This document shows positions 44,772 to 53,173 of a DNA stretch of 64,000 nucleotides, in pieces. The notes beneath the pieces were generated by a model that worked only from the letters and a program-made list of their open reading frames with translations, was not told the DNA's origin and ran no database searches. Both the position numbers and the translations under genes were made by a program. Position 1 is the first letter of the stretch; each line of letters begins with the position of its first letter. This DNA is from Gloeobacter violaceus PCC 7421 (GTDB taxonomy: Bacteria > Cyanobacteriota > Cyanobacteriia > Gloeobacterales > Gloeobacteraceae): assembly GCF_000011385.1 (NCBI RefSeq), contig NC_005125.1, positions 3,100,001-3,164,000 on the forward strand, in the 5' to 3' direction.

Positions 44772-45584
44772 TCAGCGGCGCTTGCGGTTCTGTTTGCGCG
44801 AGCGCTTGGCCATCTTGCGCCGCTGGTCGGTACCGCGCTTACGCGCTTTGTGGCTGTCGCCTGCCCGCCCACTGAAGCCGAAGGCAGGCGGCAACCACCC
44901 TCCGGGCAGCCGACTGGGCGATTTGAGGCCAAAGGCCACCTGTACATCGTCCCAGTCGCCGATAAATATTTCATCGACATTGCCGGTGGCAAAGGCGCTC
45001 TCGATCGCCGCCAGGGCTTCGAGGCCGTCCAACTCGATAAGACTGCCAATCAAAAAGGCGTTCCACTCCGCGTCGTTGGTCGCCGCCGTCTCCAGTTGGC
45101 TGGTCAGTTCCGCCACGACGGTCTCGCGCGCTTCAGGGTATTTGCGGGCAATCAGCGTCAGGGCGGAGAGGGGACTGCCGCGCATGTCCGTCGAGAGATC
45201 GCGATTACTCACCATCGCCAGGGTGGCCGGCAGCGCCGCCATCCCGATCATCTGCAGAACCCGCGGAATTTCGATGCACACCCAGTCGTCCTCCGGCAAC
45301 TGGCCCATCAGATCGAGCAGCGGCTCGACGGCCGCCTCGGCACCCAGTTGGCCCAGGGTGCGCCAGGCGTGGACCGGTCCCCAAACTTGCGGCACTTCCT
45401 CTTCAGAAGTATGCAAAGGTACGTTCGTCGCCAACTGCATCAGTTGCGGGATGTGTTCGGCCGTCAGCCCCATCGCCAGGTAGTCGGGCCAATCGATAGC
45501 TGTGCCGTTGGCATCGCCCAGTTGCAGTAACCGGTCCACCGGCAGCGAGTAATTCACAAATTCGGGAAGTGTCGTGTCACTCAT
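44772..45584 (-). CDS. HEAT-repeat-like protein with basic tail
   Basis: This 270-residue protein begins with a region of about 40 residues, then helical repeats of HEAT type (VWGPVHAWRTLGQLGAEAAVEPLLDLM, VLQMIGMAALPATLAMV, LSALTLIARKYPEARETVVAEL). Related proteins often end in an SEC-C zinc domain, but this one ends in a basic tail (KARKRGTDQRRKMAKRSRKQ). It is divergent from the helicase gene at the island's edge. Function is unknown. Confidence 0.65.
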   Translation of the reverse strand: MSDTTLPEFVNYSLPVDRLLQLGDANGTAIDWPDYLAMGLTAEHIPQLMQLATNVPLHTSEEEVPQVWGPVHAWRTLGQLGAEAAVEPLLDLMGQLPEDDWVCIEIPRVLQMIGMAALPATLAMVSNRDLSTDMRGSPLSALTLIARKYPEARETVVAELTSQLETAATNDAEWNAFLIGSLIELDGLEALAAIESAFATGNVDEIFIGDWDDVQVAFGLKSPSRLPGGWLPPAFGFSGRAGDSHKARKRGTDQRRKMAKRSRKQNRKRR

Positions 45585-45649
45585 GGGCTTTGGTTTGGGC
45601 TGGTCGGCTCACCCCTGTATTTTACTGGGCCGATTTTGGCGTCTACACC

Positions 45650-45691: not shown

Positions 45692-48600
45692 GTGAGCTAT
45701 CCTCGAAGCTGCCGTTTATCTTCAACCAACACTGTGTCAACGCAACCCGCTACTTCCATCGAGCACGCTTGCCTGGATGTGATCAGCTACTGGCACACCA
45801 GCTTACTTGATGCAGAGCGCTTGGGGCTTGATGGCCAGGTTTTCAAAGAAGAAACGATCCATCGCGCCGTGACCCGTGCGCAACTGGCGACAGGAGCCCT
45901 CAATGCACAAATCGTCGAGTGGTTGTTTGAAAAGGACGACCAAGATTTACAGACTGCAGGTGAAACGCACCCACGGGCTGTAGGCGTTCGGCCTGATCCG
46001 CTCAGCCCCCAGGCTGCCCGTGAGCAGGCAGTCGGCCCGACCGTCGCGCAGCAGGAGACCGAATTTGTCGAGGTGCAATTGTGCCCCATCCGCCTGATTG
46101 ACGAGCGTTCCGGCGCTTCTGTGGCCCCCGTCTGGATGCCGGCGGTTGTGTCGCGCTGCGGACAATTGTCTGTAGGCTCCCAGACCCCCTGGATCGCGCG
46201 CCGGTTGCTCGAACCGAACGAGGCATACCTGACGATCGGCACCATCGAAGCATTCAACGATTATGTCTCCCGAGCAGCTCTGCCCACTGATAATTGGTCG
46301 AAATACTGGGAATACTGCCATACGATGCTGCAACACGTGGCAGGAGCGGGGTACGACAATCTTGAGATGCAAGGCTTCCGCATTGCGCCTGAGGCGTATG
46401 TCTTTAAAGGCTCGCAAATTCCAGGGATCACCAAACACGTCCGCAAGCTCTACGAGTACATGCTCGCGAACACTGTGCCGCCTTTGGCGTACCACTTCAC
46501 GGGCGCTCATTTGAGCACCCTTTGCCCGTTACTCGACCGGGATCAACAGCGTCGGCAAGCCCTACGTCACTTAGGGCAGATGAGCGGCACTTACCCGCTG
46601 TCGCCTTCGCAGCGCGAAGCACTGCACCACTTTTTCAACTGCGGAGTCGGGGAGGTACTGGCTATCAATGGTCCCCCCGGAACCGGCAAAACCACCCTCG
46701 TGCAAAGTCTTGTCGCCAGCTTGTGGGTGGAGTGCGCAGTCGCAGCCAGCGAACCACCCGTGATCGTAGCGGCCTCGACTAACAACCAGGCAGTCACCAA
46801 CGTCATCGCCAGTTTTGGGAACCAGGAGCCAATGGGTGGTGAACTCGCCCGTCGATGGCTGCCCGAGTTGCTGAGCTACGGTCTGTACCTGGTATCCGCA
46901 GCCAAGCCGGACGAAGAGACCAAAGCTTTCCAGTGCATCAAAGGCAGTAATAATTTCTTTGCAACATTGGAAAACGAGGATTATGTTCGCCAAGCTATTC
47001 CGCATTTTCTCGATTATTCTCGACGGCAATACGGGCAGGCGATAGATTCGGTTCAGGTTGCCGTTGAGCATCTGCATCGAGAGTTAAAGCAACTCGTCGA
47101 GTGCATCCACCGGCTTTTATCAGAGCTGCTCGATTGCAACGGCCGGTACCGCCAAATCATCGATTTGGTTGAGCATATGCGGGGTACCCTCTGGCAGGGC
47201 AGTGCCCTGCCAGAGCCGTTCGAAAAGCTCGTCGTCGACACAATGCGGCAAATTCAATCGGCGGAGGATGGCCGGAAAGCTACTGAAGCGACCTATGAAC
47301 TGCTCGACACTGCAAGATACCTGGCCTTTTTGCTCACCACCCATTACTGGGAGGGGCGCTGGCTTCTTGAAACGCAGAAACTATTACAAAAAGCGCTGAC
47401 AGGTCCGAGAGTCGCAAGACACAAAGAGGAGGAGCGCCGATGGCGGCGCTACGCCAAGCTTACTCCCTGTTTTGTCTCCACGTTCTACATGCTGCCGCGC
47501 TTTTTCAGCGTCTACGAAGCTGGACAGGACAACGCCCCGCTGTTGGAATTTCTGGACTTGCTGGTTGTCGACGAAGCCGGACAGGCGAGCCCGGAGGTGG
47601 CGGGGGCTTCCTTCGCCCTGGCCAGGCAGGCTCTTGTGGTCGGTGATGAACAACAAATCGAGCCGGTCTGGTCGATTCCTGAAGCCATCGATTGCGGGAA
47701 TCTTCTCAAACATCGTTTGTTATCGGAGCAAACCCAAAAACCCGACTTCGACATAACCGGGCGCAGCGCTTCGGCGGGCTCTGTCATGCGCATCGCCCAA
47801 TGCCTAAGCAAGTACCAGAAATATCCGGAGCAACGGGGAATGTTTTTGAGCGAACACCGCCGCTGCGTCCGACAAATTATCAACTACTGCAACGAACTAT
47901 GCTACAGAGGGCGCCTGGAGCCAAAGACGAAGGAGCCCACCAAAATGCCTGTGCTCTCGGGTGAGCACCATCTGACGCCCATGGCTTATTGCGACATCCA
48001 CGGCAAGGCACAGCGAGTCGCGGGCAGTTGGCAAAACGAGATCGAAGCGCAGGCCATTGTCGCCTGGCTTGTCCGGGAACGGTCGGCTCTGAAGGCCCAT
48101 TACAATCAGCCGATTGAAAAAATTGTCGGAATTGTCACCCCTTTTAAAGTGCAAGCGCGCTTGATTCGCACCGCACTGAGAAACGTCGGCATACTCAACT
48201 TAACGGTTGGAACCGTCCATGCTCTGCAGGGAGCAGAACGGCCTATCGTCATATTTTCGTCGGTCTACGATGCGCTTCATAAGGGCAGTTTCTTTTTTGA
48301 CGCCAAACCGAACATGCTGAACGTGGCCGTCTCGCGGGCAAAAGAAAGCTTCATTGTTTTTGGCGACATGCGAATCTTTCGATCACAGCTTGAGAAAGCT
48401 TCTGGTGCATCGGCTCTGCCATCACATTTGCTGAGCCGATATCTCCGCGAGCATGAAGGCAATGCCCTTCCCGGTCTCCTTACCCAGGGGCAGCGCTCGC
48501 GCGAAGAATCGACAATTGTGCCGCCTACAGAGTCTGTAGATTCTGTGCTCGCCGAGGCGAAAACAGACCCTCTCCCCAAGGAGATCGGCACAGATGAACA

Positions 48601-48826
48601 ACCGATTTTAGACTCTGAATCTGTGTCGACCCACTCAGCTGTATGGGCGTGTCCAGTGTGTTCGGCAGCCCTCGAAGCGGGATTGTCTTTCGACGAAGAC
48701 GGACGGCCCACTGTGCTGTTGCGCTGTTCGAACCGGGAGGCGCGGCAGCAACCCGATCACGATGGAGCCATCTTTACCTTAAGACAGATTTGGTGGAGCG
48801 CGCGATTCGGCTATCTGTCACCTTGA
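45692..48826 (+). CDS. Upf1-like SF1 helicase, large AAA protein
   Basis: This 1044-residue protein has a helicase core of the Upf1/DNA2 type: Walker A GPPGTGKTT at Gly327, Walker B DEAGQ at Asp627, motif III VVGDEQQIEP, motif IV LSEHRRC, motif V GTVHALQGAERP, and motif VI AVSRAKE near 880. The 300-residue insert between Walker A and B is helical. The C-terminus has CPVCSAA...LLRCSNREA, a possible zinc-ribbon half. The N-terminal 320 residues are of unknown fold. Start at GTG is uncertain. AT-richer than the core genes, it stands in the defence-rich island; stand-alone Upf1-like helicases are often defence genes. The role is inferred. Confidence 0.85.
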   Translation: MSYPRSCRLSSTNTVSTQPATSIEHACLDVISYWHTSLLDAERLGLDGQVFKEETIHRAVTRAQLATGALNAQIVEWLFEKDDQDLQTAGETHPRAVGVRPDPLSPQAAREQAVGPTVAQQETEFVEVQLCPIRLIDERSGASVAPVWMPAVVSRCGQLSVGSQTPWIARRLLEPNEAYLTIGTIEAFNDYVSRAALPTDNWSKYWEYCHTMLQHVAGAGYDNLEMQGFRIAPEAYVFKGSQIPGITKHVRKLYEYMLANTVPPLAYHFTGAHLSTLCPLLDRDQQRRQALRHLGQMSGTYPLSPSQREALHHFFNCGVGEVLAINGPPGTGKTTLVQSLVASLWVECAVAASEPPVIVAASTNNQAVTNVIASFGNQEPMGGELARRWLPELLSYGLYLVSAAKPDEETKAFQCIKGSNNFFATLENEDYVRQAIPHFLDYSRRQYGQAIDSVQVAVEHLHRELKQLVECIHRLLSELLDCNGRYRQIIDLVEHMRGTLWQGSALPEPFEKLVVDTMRQIQSAEDGRKATEATYELLDTARYLAFLLTTHYWEGRWLLETQKLLQKALTGPRVARHKEEERRWRRYAKLTPCFVSTFYMLPRFFSVYEAGQDNAPLLEFLDLLVVDEAGQASPEVAGASFALARQALVVGDEQQIEPVWSIPEAIDCGNLLKHRLLSEQTQKPDFDITGRSASAGSVMRIAQCLSKYQKYPEQRGMFLSEHRRCVRQIINYCNELCYRGRLEPKTKEPTKMPVLSGEHHLTPMAYCDIHGKAQRVAGSWQNEIEAQAIVAWLVRERSALKAHYNQPIEKIVGIVTPFKVQARLIRTALRNVGILNLTVGTVHALQGAERPIVIFSSVYDALHKGSFFFDAKPNMLNVAVSRAKESFIVFGDMRIFRSQLEKASGASALPSHLLSRYLREHEGNALPGLLTQGQRSREESTIVPPTESVDSVLAEAKTDPLPKEIGTDEQPILDSESVSTHSAVWACPVCSAALEAGLSFDEDGRPTVLLRCSNREARQQPDHDGAIFTLRQIWWSARFGYLSP

Positions 48827-48902
48827 ACGCGTTTGGGTCTACCCAAACGCCAGGTTACGGCAGCAAGCCCCTACATCGAGTACTTGGATTTAGGAGCAAG
48901 CT

Positions 48903-49186
48903 ATGCCGGACGAACCGCTTCTGACGACCAGCAACGGCAGCCCCGTTGCCAATGACCAGCATTCTTTGAGCGTGGGTTGATGAGCGAAGACCAGAAGTCG
49001 CAACTGGTCTTGAACATCGTCGGCCACATGGCCGCTGCGCGCCGCGAGACCCAACTGCGCCAGATCTGCCACCTGTTCCGGGCGGACGCGGACTACGGCC
49101 GGCGGGTCGCCCAGGGTCTGGGGATCGACCTCGAACAGGAGATGGCCAAACTTGCCCGACGGCCGGAGGCCATGGAGAAGGTCTAA
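48903..49186 (+). pseudogene. Internally deleted catalase gene
   Basis: Bases 48903-48980 encode a typical monofunctional catalase N-terminus (MPDEPLLTTSNGSPVANDQH) that runs into a stop. The next frame from 48977 (TTG ATG AGC) encodes a typical catalase C-terminus (MSEDQKSQLVLNIVGHM, then LFRADADYGRRVAQGLG). The heme and catalytic core of about 400 residues is missing, and the two ends are joined out of frame at about 48978. It is a clear relic, not a functional enzyme. Confidence 0.85.
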
Positions 49187-49192
49187 TGGGCA

Positions 49193-50131
49193 CTACCCCT
49201 TGCGGGTCGCCAGGTTGACTACAAGGGGAGCCGCCAGGCTCGAACGCTTCAGCAAGACGGATCCCCCCTTCGCCACCTCCTCAGCAACCTCCAGTACCCA
49301 GCGCTCGATACGTTCGACATCCTGCTCGGGTACCCCTTCCAGCGGGGGCGGTTCGCAGGCGGCAGCCCCCATCTGCGCCCGGATGCCGTGGACAATCCTC
49401 GCCGCCTTGAGCGCGCGCCTCAGCAGCGGAGCCCCTTCGCTTTCTTTGGCATAGTTGGCCCACAGTACAAAAAAGCTCAGTACAAACGGCCAACCGGTCC
49501 AGTTCTCCGGAAGCGGCCCGAGCCACTCAACCAGTTGCTTGCGTTGAGTGAGCCGAAACAGCCACCGATTTTTCTGGGCGATCTTGTGAAGCATACCTCC
49601 CAAATGAAGCGCTTCGAGGGTGTTCGCAATGTTGCGCTTCGTGTAACCGACGGCTGCGGCAATCTCTGTGGCACCCAGCCCGCTACCGGTGTCTGCAAGC
49701 AGTGCCGCCAGGGTGGCCGAGCGGCTGCCAACCCCGAAGATCGCAGCAAGGCGCAATAGCAGCAGCGACGACCGGTTCAACGGCGGAAGCTGAGACCTGC
49801 TCCTGCCGCTTGAGGCGTGGGGGTTACCCTTCTGAGATTTTCCAAATAGTGGCTCAACTGCAGCGGTCACCTCCGGAATCGTCAGATGTTTCTCCAGGCT
49901 GCGGATCCGCTGCAGCGCCAGCAAGTGAGCGTACTGCGCGCACCAGTCGGACATTTCCTCCAGTAATCTGGGATCTTCCTCGCCCAGCCACCAGCTCGCC
50001 GCCAGCAACGCTTCAGGATCTACCAGGCAACGTTCATGGTGTCGCTGCAGGCCCACCACTCCCAGTTCCGTCCACAAGCTCCACAAGAGGGTCAAGGTGT
50101 GTTCCAGCAGCCGTTCTTTAAAGTTCGACAT
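49193..50131 (-). CDS. Winged-helix protein of a NTase/HTH module
   Basis: This 312-residue protein has a helical N-terminal region, a winged helix-turn-helix at about residues 150-190 (LGATEIAAAVGYTKRNIANTLEALHLGGML), and a C-terminal domain with SFFVLWANYAKESEG. It overlaps the preceding nucleotidyltransferase gene by 14 bases and is cotranscribed with it. In AbiE-type systems a winged-helix antitoxin pairs with a nucleotidyltransferase toxin; this protein is the likely antitoxin and autoregulator. No close family was recognised. Confidence 0.7.
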   Translation of the reverse strand: MSNFKERLLEHTLTLLWSLWTELGVVGLQRHHERCLVDPEALLAASWWLGEEDPRLLEEMSDWCAQYAHLLALQRIRSLEKHLTIPEVTAAVEPLFGKSQKGNPHASSGRSRSQLPPLNRSSLLLLRLAAIFGVGSRSATLAALLADTGSGLGATEIAAAVGYTKRNIANTLEALHLGGMLHKIAQKNRWLFRLTQRKQLVEWLGPLPENWTGWPFVLSFFVLWANYAKESEGAPLLRRALKAARIVHGIRAQMGAAACEPPPLEGVPEQDVERIERWVLEVAEEVAKGGSVLLKRSSLAAPLVVNLATRKG

Positions 50132-50687
50132 CGGCCACCCCGAGACTGTTTAAGGCCGCCTGCAAATCCTGCTCGATGCCGTCGGCGTGGGTGAGACACC
50201 AGCGGGCCGCCGCGATCAGTTCTGCAGCGCTCGGCTTGAGCCGCTTCAAGTCTGCATAATGTTTGCTCTTGGGTCCTTGATCCACCGCTGCATACAGCTT
50301 GAAGTGCACCTGGTCGTATCGGCTGGCTATCTGCACGGTCAAAGCTTTGTAGGTGCGGACCACAGCCCGCTCGCGAAATCCTTCGGGCAATCCTGCGCGC
50401 AGTAAATCGGTCGGTGCACCGTTCAGCCAGTCGTCCGCCAGCCCCAATAACAGCGCCACCTCTGCAGCCGCTTCCCTTAAGACCCTCGGCAGCGGCTGAG
50501 CGCTCTGGTAGCGATTCCCTTCGACCAGGGCCACCACATCGATGTCCCGGGTGGCACGCTCAAGCAAATTCAGCAGGACCAGCCCACCACCACCGATAAC
50601 GACAACTTCGCAAAAGACACCGCGTTCAGCCAACACCTCCCCCAGGGTTGCAAGGGCTCGCTCTAAAATCTCATGGGTAACTGACAC
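50118..50687 (-). CDS. DUF6036-like nucleotidyltransferase (probable toxin)
   Basis: This 189-residue protein has the minimal nucleotidyltransferase signature VIGGGGLVLLNLLERATRDIDVVAL: a Gly-Gly loop followed by the acidic pair Asp-Ile-Asp. LYAAVDQGPKSKHYADLKRLKPS near 140 matches DUF6036/AbiEii-type proteins. These modify tRNA or other substrates in toxin-antitoxin systems. The start is GTG 50687; a 31-bp inverted repeat lies 28 bases upstream. The winged-helix gene follows with overlap. Confidence 0.75.
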   Translation of the reverse strand: MSVTHEILERALATLGEVLAERGVFCEVVVIGGGGLVLLNLLERATRDIDVVALVEGNRYQSAQPLPRVLREAAAEVALLLGLADDWLNGAPTDLLRAGLPEGFRERAVVRTYKALTVQIASRYDQVHFKLYAAVDQGPKSKHYADLKRLKPSAAELIAAARWCLTHADGIEQDLQAALNSLGVADVEL

Positions 50688-50745: not shown

Positions 50746-51059
50746 ACGCCTTTTCTAAATAACGCGTATCGGACGGAAGAACACCAGGCCAGTCCTGCCT
50801 GCCGTGGACTATGCCGACAATCACCACCGACTCGCGCGCCGGTCGGTAGACGATGACATCGAGAGTGCGGGCCACCACCCACTCGCGCGTCCCCCGCAGG
50901 CGACCGGCACGTCCGGACAGCGGAAAGCGTGCCATCTCGGCGATCACAGTTGCGATACGCCCAAGTCACAAATTGCGGCCACTTGGAGGAGACCCGGCTA
51001 GCCTCCTCCCGAATCAAGGCCAGCCGCTCGACCGCTTCGATCGTCCAGAGTACCTGCAT
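50744..51059 (-). pseudogene. ParE/RelE-like toxin, frameshifted
   Basis: The first frame (ATG at 51059) starts MQVLWTIEAVERLALIREE as in ParE-like toxins. Near 50960 the family pattern moves frame and continues as RIATVIAEMARFPLSGRAGR, then TREWVVARTLDVIVYRP, to the stop at 50744. An indel explains it. A short upstream frame (51059-51172) ending in EQDQAAFDAFKPT overlaps the ATG as TGATG, which looks like the tail of an antitoxin gene. The module is decayed. Confidence 0.65.
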
Positions 51060-51294
51060 CAGGTCGGCTTGAAGGCGTCGAAAGCAGCTTGGTCCTGCTC
51101 GACGCTCGCCCATTCTCCACAGCGTCCCTTCGGTAGCCATCCGTCCGGTTGGCCGTTTGCCGCGAAACTGGGCTACAGGACGGCGCAAATGTTTGGCGAT
51201 TGAAGATGATTTCGAGGGCGGCGCCCGCAGGCCCCTCTAACTGCACATGGACAAAAATTCACCAAAATTGTGGTAGCAGATTACACTGAAAGCC

Positions 51295-52074
51295 ATGACC
51301 ACCACACACACGGCCATCGAATGGACCGACAGAACCTGGAATCCGACCACCGGTTGCACCAAGGTCAGTCCAGGTTGTCGCTATTGCTACGCCGAGGCGC
51401 TCACCAGGCGATTTAAGAACCATTTCGCCCATGGCTTTCAATTTACCCTGCATCCGCAAAGGCTTCTGGAGCCCAAACAGTGGCGCATCCCCGGTCGCGT
51501 CTTTGTCAATTCGATGAGCGATTTGTTTCACGAACAGATGCCTCTGGAGTATTTAGAGCAGATCTTTCAGGTCATTGCCGAAACGCCGCAGCACGTCTAT
51601 CAGGTGCTCACCAAGCGCCATGAACGGCTCACTCAGTTGGCGCCGCGGTTGCCGTGGCCTGAGAATCTGTGGATGGGGGTGTCCGTTGAAGATCAAAACT
51701 ACGTCCATCGAATTGAGCATCTGAAGCAGGTACCGGCCAGGGTCCGCTTTCTTTCATGCGAGCCGCTTTTGGGTGCATTGCGGATGGACCTCGAAGGCAT
51801 CGACTGGGTGATCGTCGGTGGAGAATCTGGTCCAAAGCACAGACCCATCGAGCCGCAGTGGGTGCGTGATATTCAGCAGCAAACCCACGACGCGGGCGCG
51901 GCTTTTTTCTTCAAGCAGTGGGGAGGCCACACGGCTAAAGCCGGTGGGCGGATGCTGGACGGCCGCGTATGGGACGAGATGCCGCCGGCTTGGGAGGAGC
52001 ATTTGGCCTGGCTGCAGAACCACTCTGCCAACTTTAAGCGTCGTGCGTCACCGGCGGCTCGGGAAAAACAATGA
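51295..52074 (+). CDS. DUF5131 (Gp37/Gp68) three-Cys-motif protein
   Basis: This 259-residue protein has the family N-terminus IEWTDRTWNPTTGCTKVSPG followed by CRYCYAE; the three Cys (CTKVSPGCRYC) give the name three-Cys-motif and resemble a radical-SAM cluster loop. FVNSMSDLFH, VYQVLTKRHERL, LWMGVSVED, and WVIVGGESGPKHRP follow. DUF5131 genes are typically beside tcmP, as here, though in this locus they converge and overlap by 41 bases. The activity is not firmly established; phage and defence contexts are common. Confidence 0.88.
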   Translation: MTTTHTAIEWTDRTWNPTTGCTKVSPGCRYCYAEALTRRFKNHFAHGFQFTLHPQRLLEPKQWRIPGRVFVNSMSDLFHEQMPLEYLEQIFQVIAETPQHVYQVLTKRHERLTQLAPRLPWPENLWMGVSVEDQNYVHRIEHLKQVPARVRFLSCEPLLGALRMDLEGIDWVIVGGESGPKHRPIEPQWVRDIQQQTHDAGAAFFFKQWGGHTAKAGGRMLDGRVWDEMPPAWEEHLAWLQNHSANFKRRASPAAREKQ

Positions 52075-53173
52075 AGAGATGGTTGGCCATCGTTCCTTTT
52101 CTACGGGTTCCAGTGGTCGCGCGCACTTGGATCTTGCCCTGGCGCTCCAGTTCAAGCAGTGCGGCTTTGTAGTTTTTGATCACGTAGGGTGTATCGACGT
52201 GGTGGCGCAGGAAGACCTGCTCCACGCTAAGGCTTTGGCCTGCGTAGCGTTGCAGCAGTTCGTCCGCCAGGGTATCCAGAGGGCGAGACATCTCAAAAAG
52301 AAGTTTCCGTTGCGGTGGAGCGGGGGCATATTCGAACGTCGGAACCCCCTGATGCGAATGGCTACTCTCACCGGCCATTATGTCTTTCATCAGGATGTAG
52401 CCGCGCTCGGCTTTGGAGACAAACACAATGTAGTGGCTGGTGCGGCCACCGGAGGCGTTTTTGAAGCGAAAGGGCAGCACGTACCTGCCGCCGGCTTTGA
52501 GCGCCTGACAGAGCGCCTCGACCACCGCGAGTTCCCGCTCCTGCGGGGGCAGGGCCGCCACCTGCTCGCGCAGAGTTTGCGCTCTGGGCGGGCCAAACAG
52601 GGCGTCCATGTGGGCCTTGACGGCGGGGTTAGCAAGTCCCATCGAGACCCGGTTGTAGTTGAAAAAGAAGATGCAGTCGCAGCCCCAGTCTTTGAGGACG
52701 GAGTTGATCAGCTCCAGGGACAGCCCCTTGTACCCCCACGGATCGACGAAGAATAGCGTCGGCACAAAGCTGATCTGCTTGAAGCGGCGGGCGATAGTTT
52801 CGCCCACTTCCTCGTTCCAGATTTCCGGGGCATAGCGCAGGATTTTGATGCCGGGAAGATCCTGAATCGCTTGCTGCAAGGTTTCGCAGGCATCGCCGTC
52901 TTTGTCGTTGAAAATCGTGACCAGCATCTGCCGCAGCCTGGGGTCGGCGACGGCCTGCCCCAAAACCTTCAGCGGTGTCGATGGGGCTCCATCTGCGTAT
53001 TCACCGGGGCCGCAGAACAGATCGATATAGGCAATCCTGCCGCTGGATCGCTGCGGATACCTCCGCGCTGCGCTCATCATCACCTGTGCCCAGGCCCAAA
53101 AATACTTCGAGACGATCGCCGACTTGACCTGCGATTGCTCAGTGGACTCGTCGAAGAACGATGCATCGGTCAC
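52034..53173 (-). CDS. tcmP: Three-Cys-motif partner protein TcmP
   Basis: This 379-residue protein matches TcmP, partner of DUF5131. It starts with KYFWAWAQVMMSAAR and AYIDLFCGPGEY, a methyltransferase-like Rossmann loop, followed by FVDPWGYKGL and CIFFFNYNRVSMG. The C-terminus (SVEQVFLRHHVDTPYVIKNY) looks like a winged helix. The GTG start at 53173 has GGAGG about 10 bases upstream. The 3' end overlaps the DUF5131 gene on the other strand by 41 bases. Confidence 0.85.
   Translation of the reverse strand: MTDASFFDESTEQSQVKSAIVSKYFWAWAQVMMSAARRYPQRSSGRIAYIDLFCGPGEYADGAPSTPLKVLGQAVADPRLRQMLVTIFNDKDGDACETLQQAIQDLPGIKILRYAPEIWNEEVGETIARRFKQISFVPTLFFVDPWGYKGLSLELINSVLKDWGCDCIFFFNYNRVSMGLANPAVKAHMDALFGPPRAQTLREQVAALPPQERELAVVEALCQALKAGGRYVLPFRFKNASGGRTSHYIVFVSKAERGYILMKDIMAGESSHSHQGVPTFEYAPAPPQRKLLFEMSRPLDTLADELLQRYAGQSLSVEQVFLRHHVDTPYVIKNYKAALLELERQGKIQVRATTGTRRKGTMANHLFIVFPEPPVTHDA

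Follow-up and report, generated by a model that had tools for sequence, protein, structure and literature searches.

A catalase gene of which only the two ends survive lies on the plus strand of Gloeobacter violaceus PCC 7421, at 48903-49186 of the 64,000-nucleotide stretch of DNA that we analysed (the window). We are highly confident that it is the pseudogene of a clade-3-type heme catalase whose core was deleted in the decay of a dispensable enzyme. Judged by sequence comparison, the remnant appears to be a unitary pseudogene; several heme catalases in the family, this one among them, are broken in different ways, and the decay runs in parallel across the relatives. It is an ordinary but well-documented gene loss.

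Read directly from the sequence, the N-terminal fragment (48903-48980, plus strand) opens at ATG 48903, runs for 25 codons (MPDEPLLTTSNGSPVANDQHSLSVG) and is closed by a TGA at 48978-48980 that was created by the join; 24 of its 25 residues are identical to those of the catalase of a congener, G001. The C-terminal fragment (48977-49186, plus strand) was recognized as Catalase-rel (PF06628) by Pfam, by its match to the Gloeobacterales MAG ES-bin-141 and by alignment. It lies in another frame, TTG ATG AGC ... TAA, giving MSEDQKSQLVLNIVGHMAAARRETQLRQICHLFRADADYGRRVAQGLGIDLEQEMAKLARRPEAMEKV, and comprises 69 codons from TTG 48977 or 68 from ATG 48980, with the TAA stop ending at 49186. The TGA of the first frame and the ATG of the second overlap as TGATG (48978-48982). 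When we aligned the pieces to L001, an intact catalase of 498 residues encoded by another member of the order, the first corresponded to residues 1-25 and the second to residue 430 onward, so that about 404 codons (residues ~26-429 of the homologue) are missing between the ends. A first-pass annotation made from the letters alone had described a catalase N-terminus of about 25 residues beside a C-terminus of about 67, a missing heme core of roughly 400 residues, an out-of-frame join and a retained start and stop, and all of these features were confirmed.

The remnant lacks the PF00199 heme core, with the distal His and proximal Tyr, that marks a functional heme catalase. The C-terminal Catalase-rel region is present, matching positions 18-65 of the 65 in PF06628 with an E value of 6.5e-13, above the cut-off. 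All columns conserved among intact catalases were still matched by this fragment in the alignment, and it would thus seem to have undergone no visible decay since the deletion. Searching the genome by family (4,659,019 bp, one contig), we found no match to the PF00199 heme core anywhere and no PF06628 match other than that of the remnant. Relocation of the core to another part of the genome was rejected on the same genome-wide PF00199 result. The locus therefore has what is expected of a unitary pseudogene: both termini are orthologous to a catalase gene, the middle is missing, the frame is broken, and these searches found an intact copy nowhere else in the genome.

The first-pass annotation itself raised the concern that the N-terminal match might be due to chance. 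The N-terminal DNA, however, was 85% identical over 98 bp to the G001 catalase (blastn 1.7e-23, and 1.2e-22 in another search), with L028 of G001 at 1403-1500 aligned to 48880-48976 of the window, and 23 bp of this match lay upstream of the remnant's ATG. This identity, together with synteny to the same HEAT-repeat neighbour, led us to reject a chance match. Among the species genomes scanned, the C-terminal piece was nearest to ES-bin-141 (72%, tblastn 1e-31).

Overlay on the relatives, G001 for the N side and ES-bin-141 (G005) for the C side, placed the deletion joint at approximately 48974-48979 of the plus strand, an estimate that leans on one relative lacking the C side (G001) and another lacking the N side beyond codon 16 (G005). 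The N side matched through ...GTGGG and the C side from GG(C/T)TGATGAGC; GG, or at most GGY, could be assigned to either side, a possible microhomology of 2-3 bp. Short direct repeats at the joint, which the first-pass annotation had proposed looking for, were found in this minimal form only, and no direct repeat of several bases was present at the breakpoints as judged from the relatives' sequences. Repeat-mediated deletion was accordingly rejected. With so little homology, the joint would fit end joining or slippage rather than repeat recombination, and the deletion is mechanistically ordinary.

The surroundings of the remnant have also changed. A HEAT-repeat-like gene on the minus strand (44772-45587) served as the syntenic anchor, with 86% DNA identity to L028 445-1260 in G001 and to L053 8547-9362 in the congener G003. 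In G001 this gene directly adjoins the start of the catalase (L028 1427 on). In the window, the space between the end of the HEAT gene (45587) and the remnant is filled by a MkoC-like superfamily-1 helicase gene of 1044 codons (45692-48826, plus strand; PADLOC MkoC, 7e-280). MkoC in PADLOC is a Mokosh-type defence model. Among the other 8 genomes of the order we found no full-length homologue of the helicase. Its stop codon is closely followed by a perfect 10-bp inverted repeat, GCGTTTGGGT CT ACCCAAACGC (48829-48850), with no T-run behind it and no further copy within the window. Homology to G001 does not return until 23 bp upstream of the remnant's ATG, in a retained 5' leader with a ribosome-binding-site-like AGGAG (48880-48902, plus strand), which indicates that the ribosome-binding region was kept and the promoter region replaced. 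The lesion thus reaches beyond the coding region.

In G003 only 113 bp separate the HEAT gene from a ParE-toxin-containing segment that corresponds to 50776-51124 of the window (minus strand; 86% to L053 9475-9822; Pfam ParE). G003 thus has an empty site, without the catalase and its surroundings. The minus strand at 49193-50687 of the window carries a gene that weakly matches a winged-helix model and another that resembles an AbiEii/DUF6036-like nucleotidyltransferase (E about 1e-5); the pair looks toxin-antitoxin-like and is absent from the matching G003 site. Farther on, at 51295-53173, a DUF5131 protein adjoins the three-Cys-motif partner protein TcmP, and both match PADLOC candidate defence models (PDC-M30/M41).

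The analysis covered a single assembly of the genome, which leaves room for the view that the organism does have the core and that cloning or assembly dropped or collapsed it. We regard such an assembly or cloning artefact as very unlikely. Assemblies usually collapse across a repeat, and the joint offers only 2-3 bp of homology; the genome is a single contig with an estimated completeness of 99.96%. An intact copy is independently missing from relatives, two others of which are also in few contigs. Decay has left independent marks at this site too, in the loss of the promoter region and in the presence of the helicase gene. Comparison with relatives supports an internal deletion of a catalase gene, as the first-pass annotation had proposed.

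We examined the substitutions in both fragments. Across the 25 codons shared with G001 there were 8 synonymous changes and 1 non-synonymous change, and dN/dS was 0.19 for the C-terminus against ES-bin-141 and 0.21 for the neighbouring HEAT gene against G001. From this pattern, selection acted on the catalase over most of the divergence, and the losses are recent and separate. An alternative is that the locus is a working short bicistron whose 68-residue Catalase-rel peptide is translated by coupling and has taken on a new role; the TGATG overlap, the retained AGGAG leader and an open C-terminal frame with intact conserved motifs are in keeping with that idea. Yet the measured constraint mostly predates the deletion, because the relatives compared are distant. 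In addition, the promoter region has been replaced, the fragment has neither the heme core nor the greater part of the fold, and the same short form is kept in no relative examined. We consider a functional bicistron extremely improbable and take the locus to be a pseudogene.

The rest of the genome, checked as the first-pass annotation had advised, held no intact heme catalase and did hold KatG, a Mn-catalase and peroxiredoxins. KatG occupies a 744-codon open frame in which the cofactor Trp, Tyr and Met and the heme-site motifs align to solved catalase-peroxidases. A suspected loss of the Met of the Met-Tyr-Trp cofactor, whose position we take to be in the RMAMND motif, would have deprived the cell of its back-up catalase; it was rejected when the alignment to 5l05 showed this Met to be retained, and the Gln that had seemed suspect in KatG is likewise Gln in 5l05, a solved catalase-peroxidase. 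The Mn-catalase match lies in a 311-codon open frame. There were fifteen AhpC-TSA matches in the genome, probably with thioredoxin-like proteins among them, and one survey counted nine peroxiredoxin genes in Gloeobacter PCC 7421 (PMC3514251). Retention of these enzymes suggests, as far as the gene content can tell, that the loss of the heme catalase was buffered and that peroxide defence was not lost. Among the 9 genomes of the order, 5 with KatG had no intact heme catalase and 2 with an intact heme catalase had no KatG; we do not claim mutual exclusion from this count, as the genomes are too few and phylogenetically confounded.

The first-pass annotation had presented the locus as gene loss in an oxygenic organism. 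The heme catalase is indeed lost, but that phrase makes the loss sound graver than it is, since KatG, the Mn-catalase and peroxiredoxins remain and heme catalases are rare in cyanobacteria anyway. Typical catalases are described as scarce in the phylum (PMC8017148), and we found a near-full-length PF00199 match in one open frame in 13 of 146 sampled cyanobacterial genomes. Apparently broken or truncated heme catalases were also seen in other cyanobacteria (G039:C96:1905-2855 and G073:C88:59790-60104), which suggests that heme-catalase decay is wider than Gloeobacter.

We propose that the ancestor of Gloeobacter had a clade-3-type small-subunit monofunctional heme catalase adjoining the HEAT-repeat gene. 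In the PCC 7421 lineage the heme core would then have been lost in a single internal deletion of about 1.2 kb, through end joining at no more than 2-3 bp of homology. This would have left 25 codons of the N-terminus and about 69 of the C-terminus, out of frame with each other. In a separate change, a helicase gene of defence type would have come to lie upstream, with loss of the promoter region. The catalase would have been dispensable because KatG, the Mn-catalase and peroxiredoxins take care of peroxide, and sister lineages would have lost their heme catalases through other lesions. We infer the single deletion event, the order of events and dispensability as the cause. It is also conceivable, if improbable, that heme catalase activity was selected against in the Gloeobacteraceae, beyond mere dispensability, with KatG and the Mn-catalase taking over; the core would then have been removed repeatedly, in PCC 7421, in ES-bin-141 and in the large-subunit catalase of another species.

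With decay of a dispensable enzyme as the preferred reading, the locus catches heme-catalase loss in progress in thylakoid-less Gloeobacter, the group that branches deepest among cyanobacteria, and the sister genomes carry separate lesions. Such separate losses help explain the patchy distribution of heme catalases in a phylum that produces oxygen, and the Catalase-rel match here should not be counted as a catalase gene. In the freely accessible literature searched, we found no published report of the PCC 7421 remnant.

Comparison of close relatives, also advised in the first-pass annotation, revealed other lesions of heme catalases. The G001 gene is retained from its N-terminus to about model position 220, spread over three frames, where it meets a transposase fragment of ISAs1 type, the family name being our own reading of a DDE_Tnp_1_assoc match. 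G001 and G005 are draft assemblies, whose lesions may in part reflect errors of assembly or sequencing; since the G001 Mn-catalase is likewise split over frames, sequencing error may account for the small frameshifts in G001. The transposase junction does not depend on these frameshifts. ES-bin-141 (L030 8473-9272) resembles PCC 7421 in having an orthologous start (85% DNA identity) and end (77%) and an internal deletion that is also out of frame; it differs in that codon 16 is joined to about residue 255 and the C-terminal 246 codons survive. The HPII-type remnant of G002, a congener with a genome of 4,724,791 bp (L029 9713-10321), likewise keeps N- and C-terminal parts with the core deleted, about 70 N-terminal residues being joined to part of the Catalase_C region, but it derives from a large-subunit catalase (Catalase_C match) at another locus. 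The surviving C-terminal half in the nearest relative is closest in the PDB to small-subunit catalases (2isa, human, bovine). The PCC 7421 remnant agrees with the clade 3 (small-subunit) monofunctional heme catalases (PF00199 plus PF06628) in both ends and in the order in which they stand, and differs from them in having lost the heme core, residues ~26-429, and in joining what is left out of frame.
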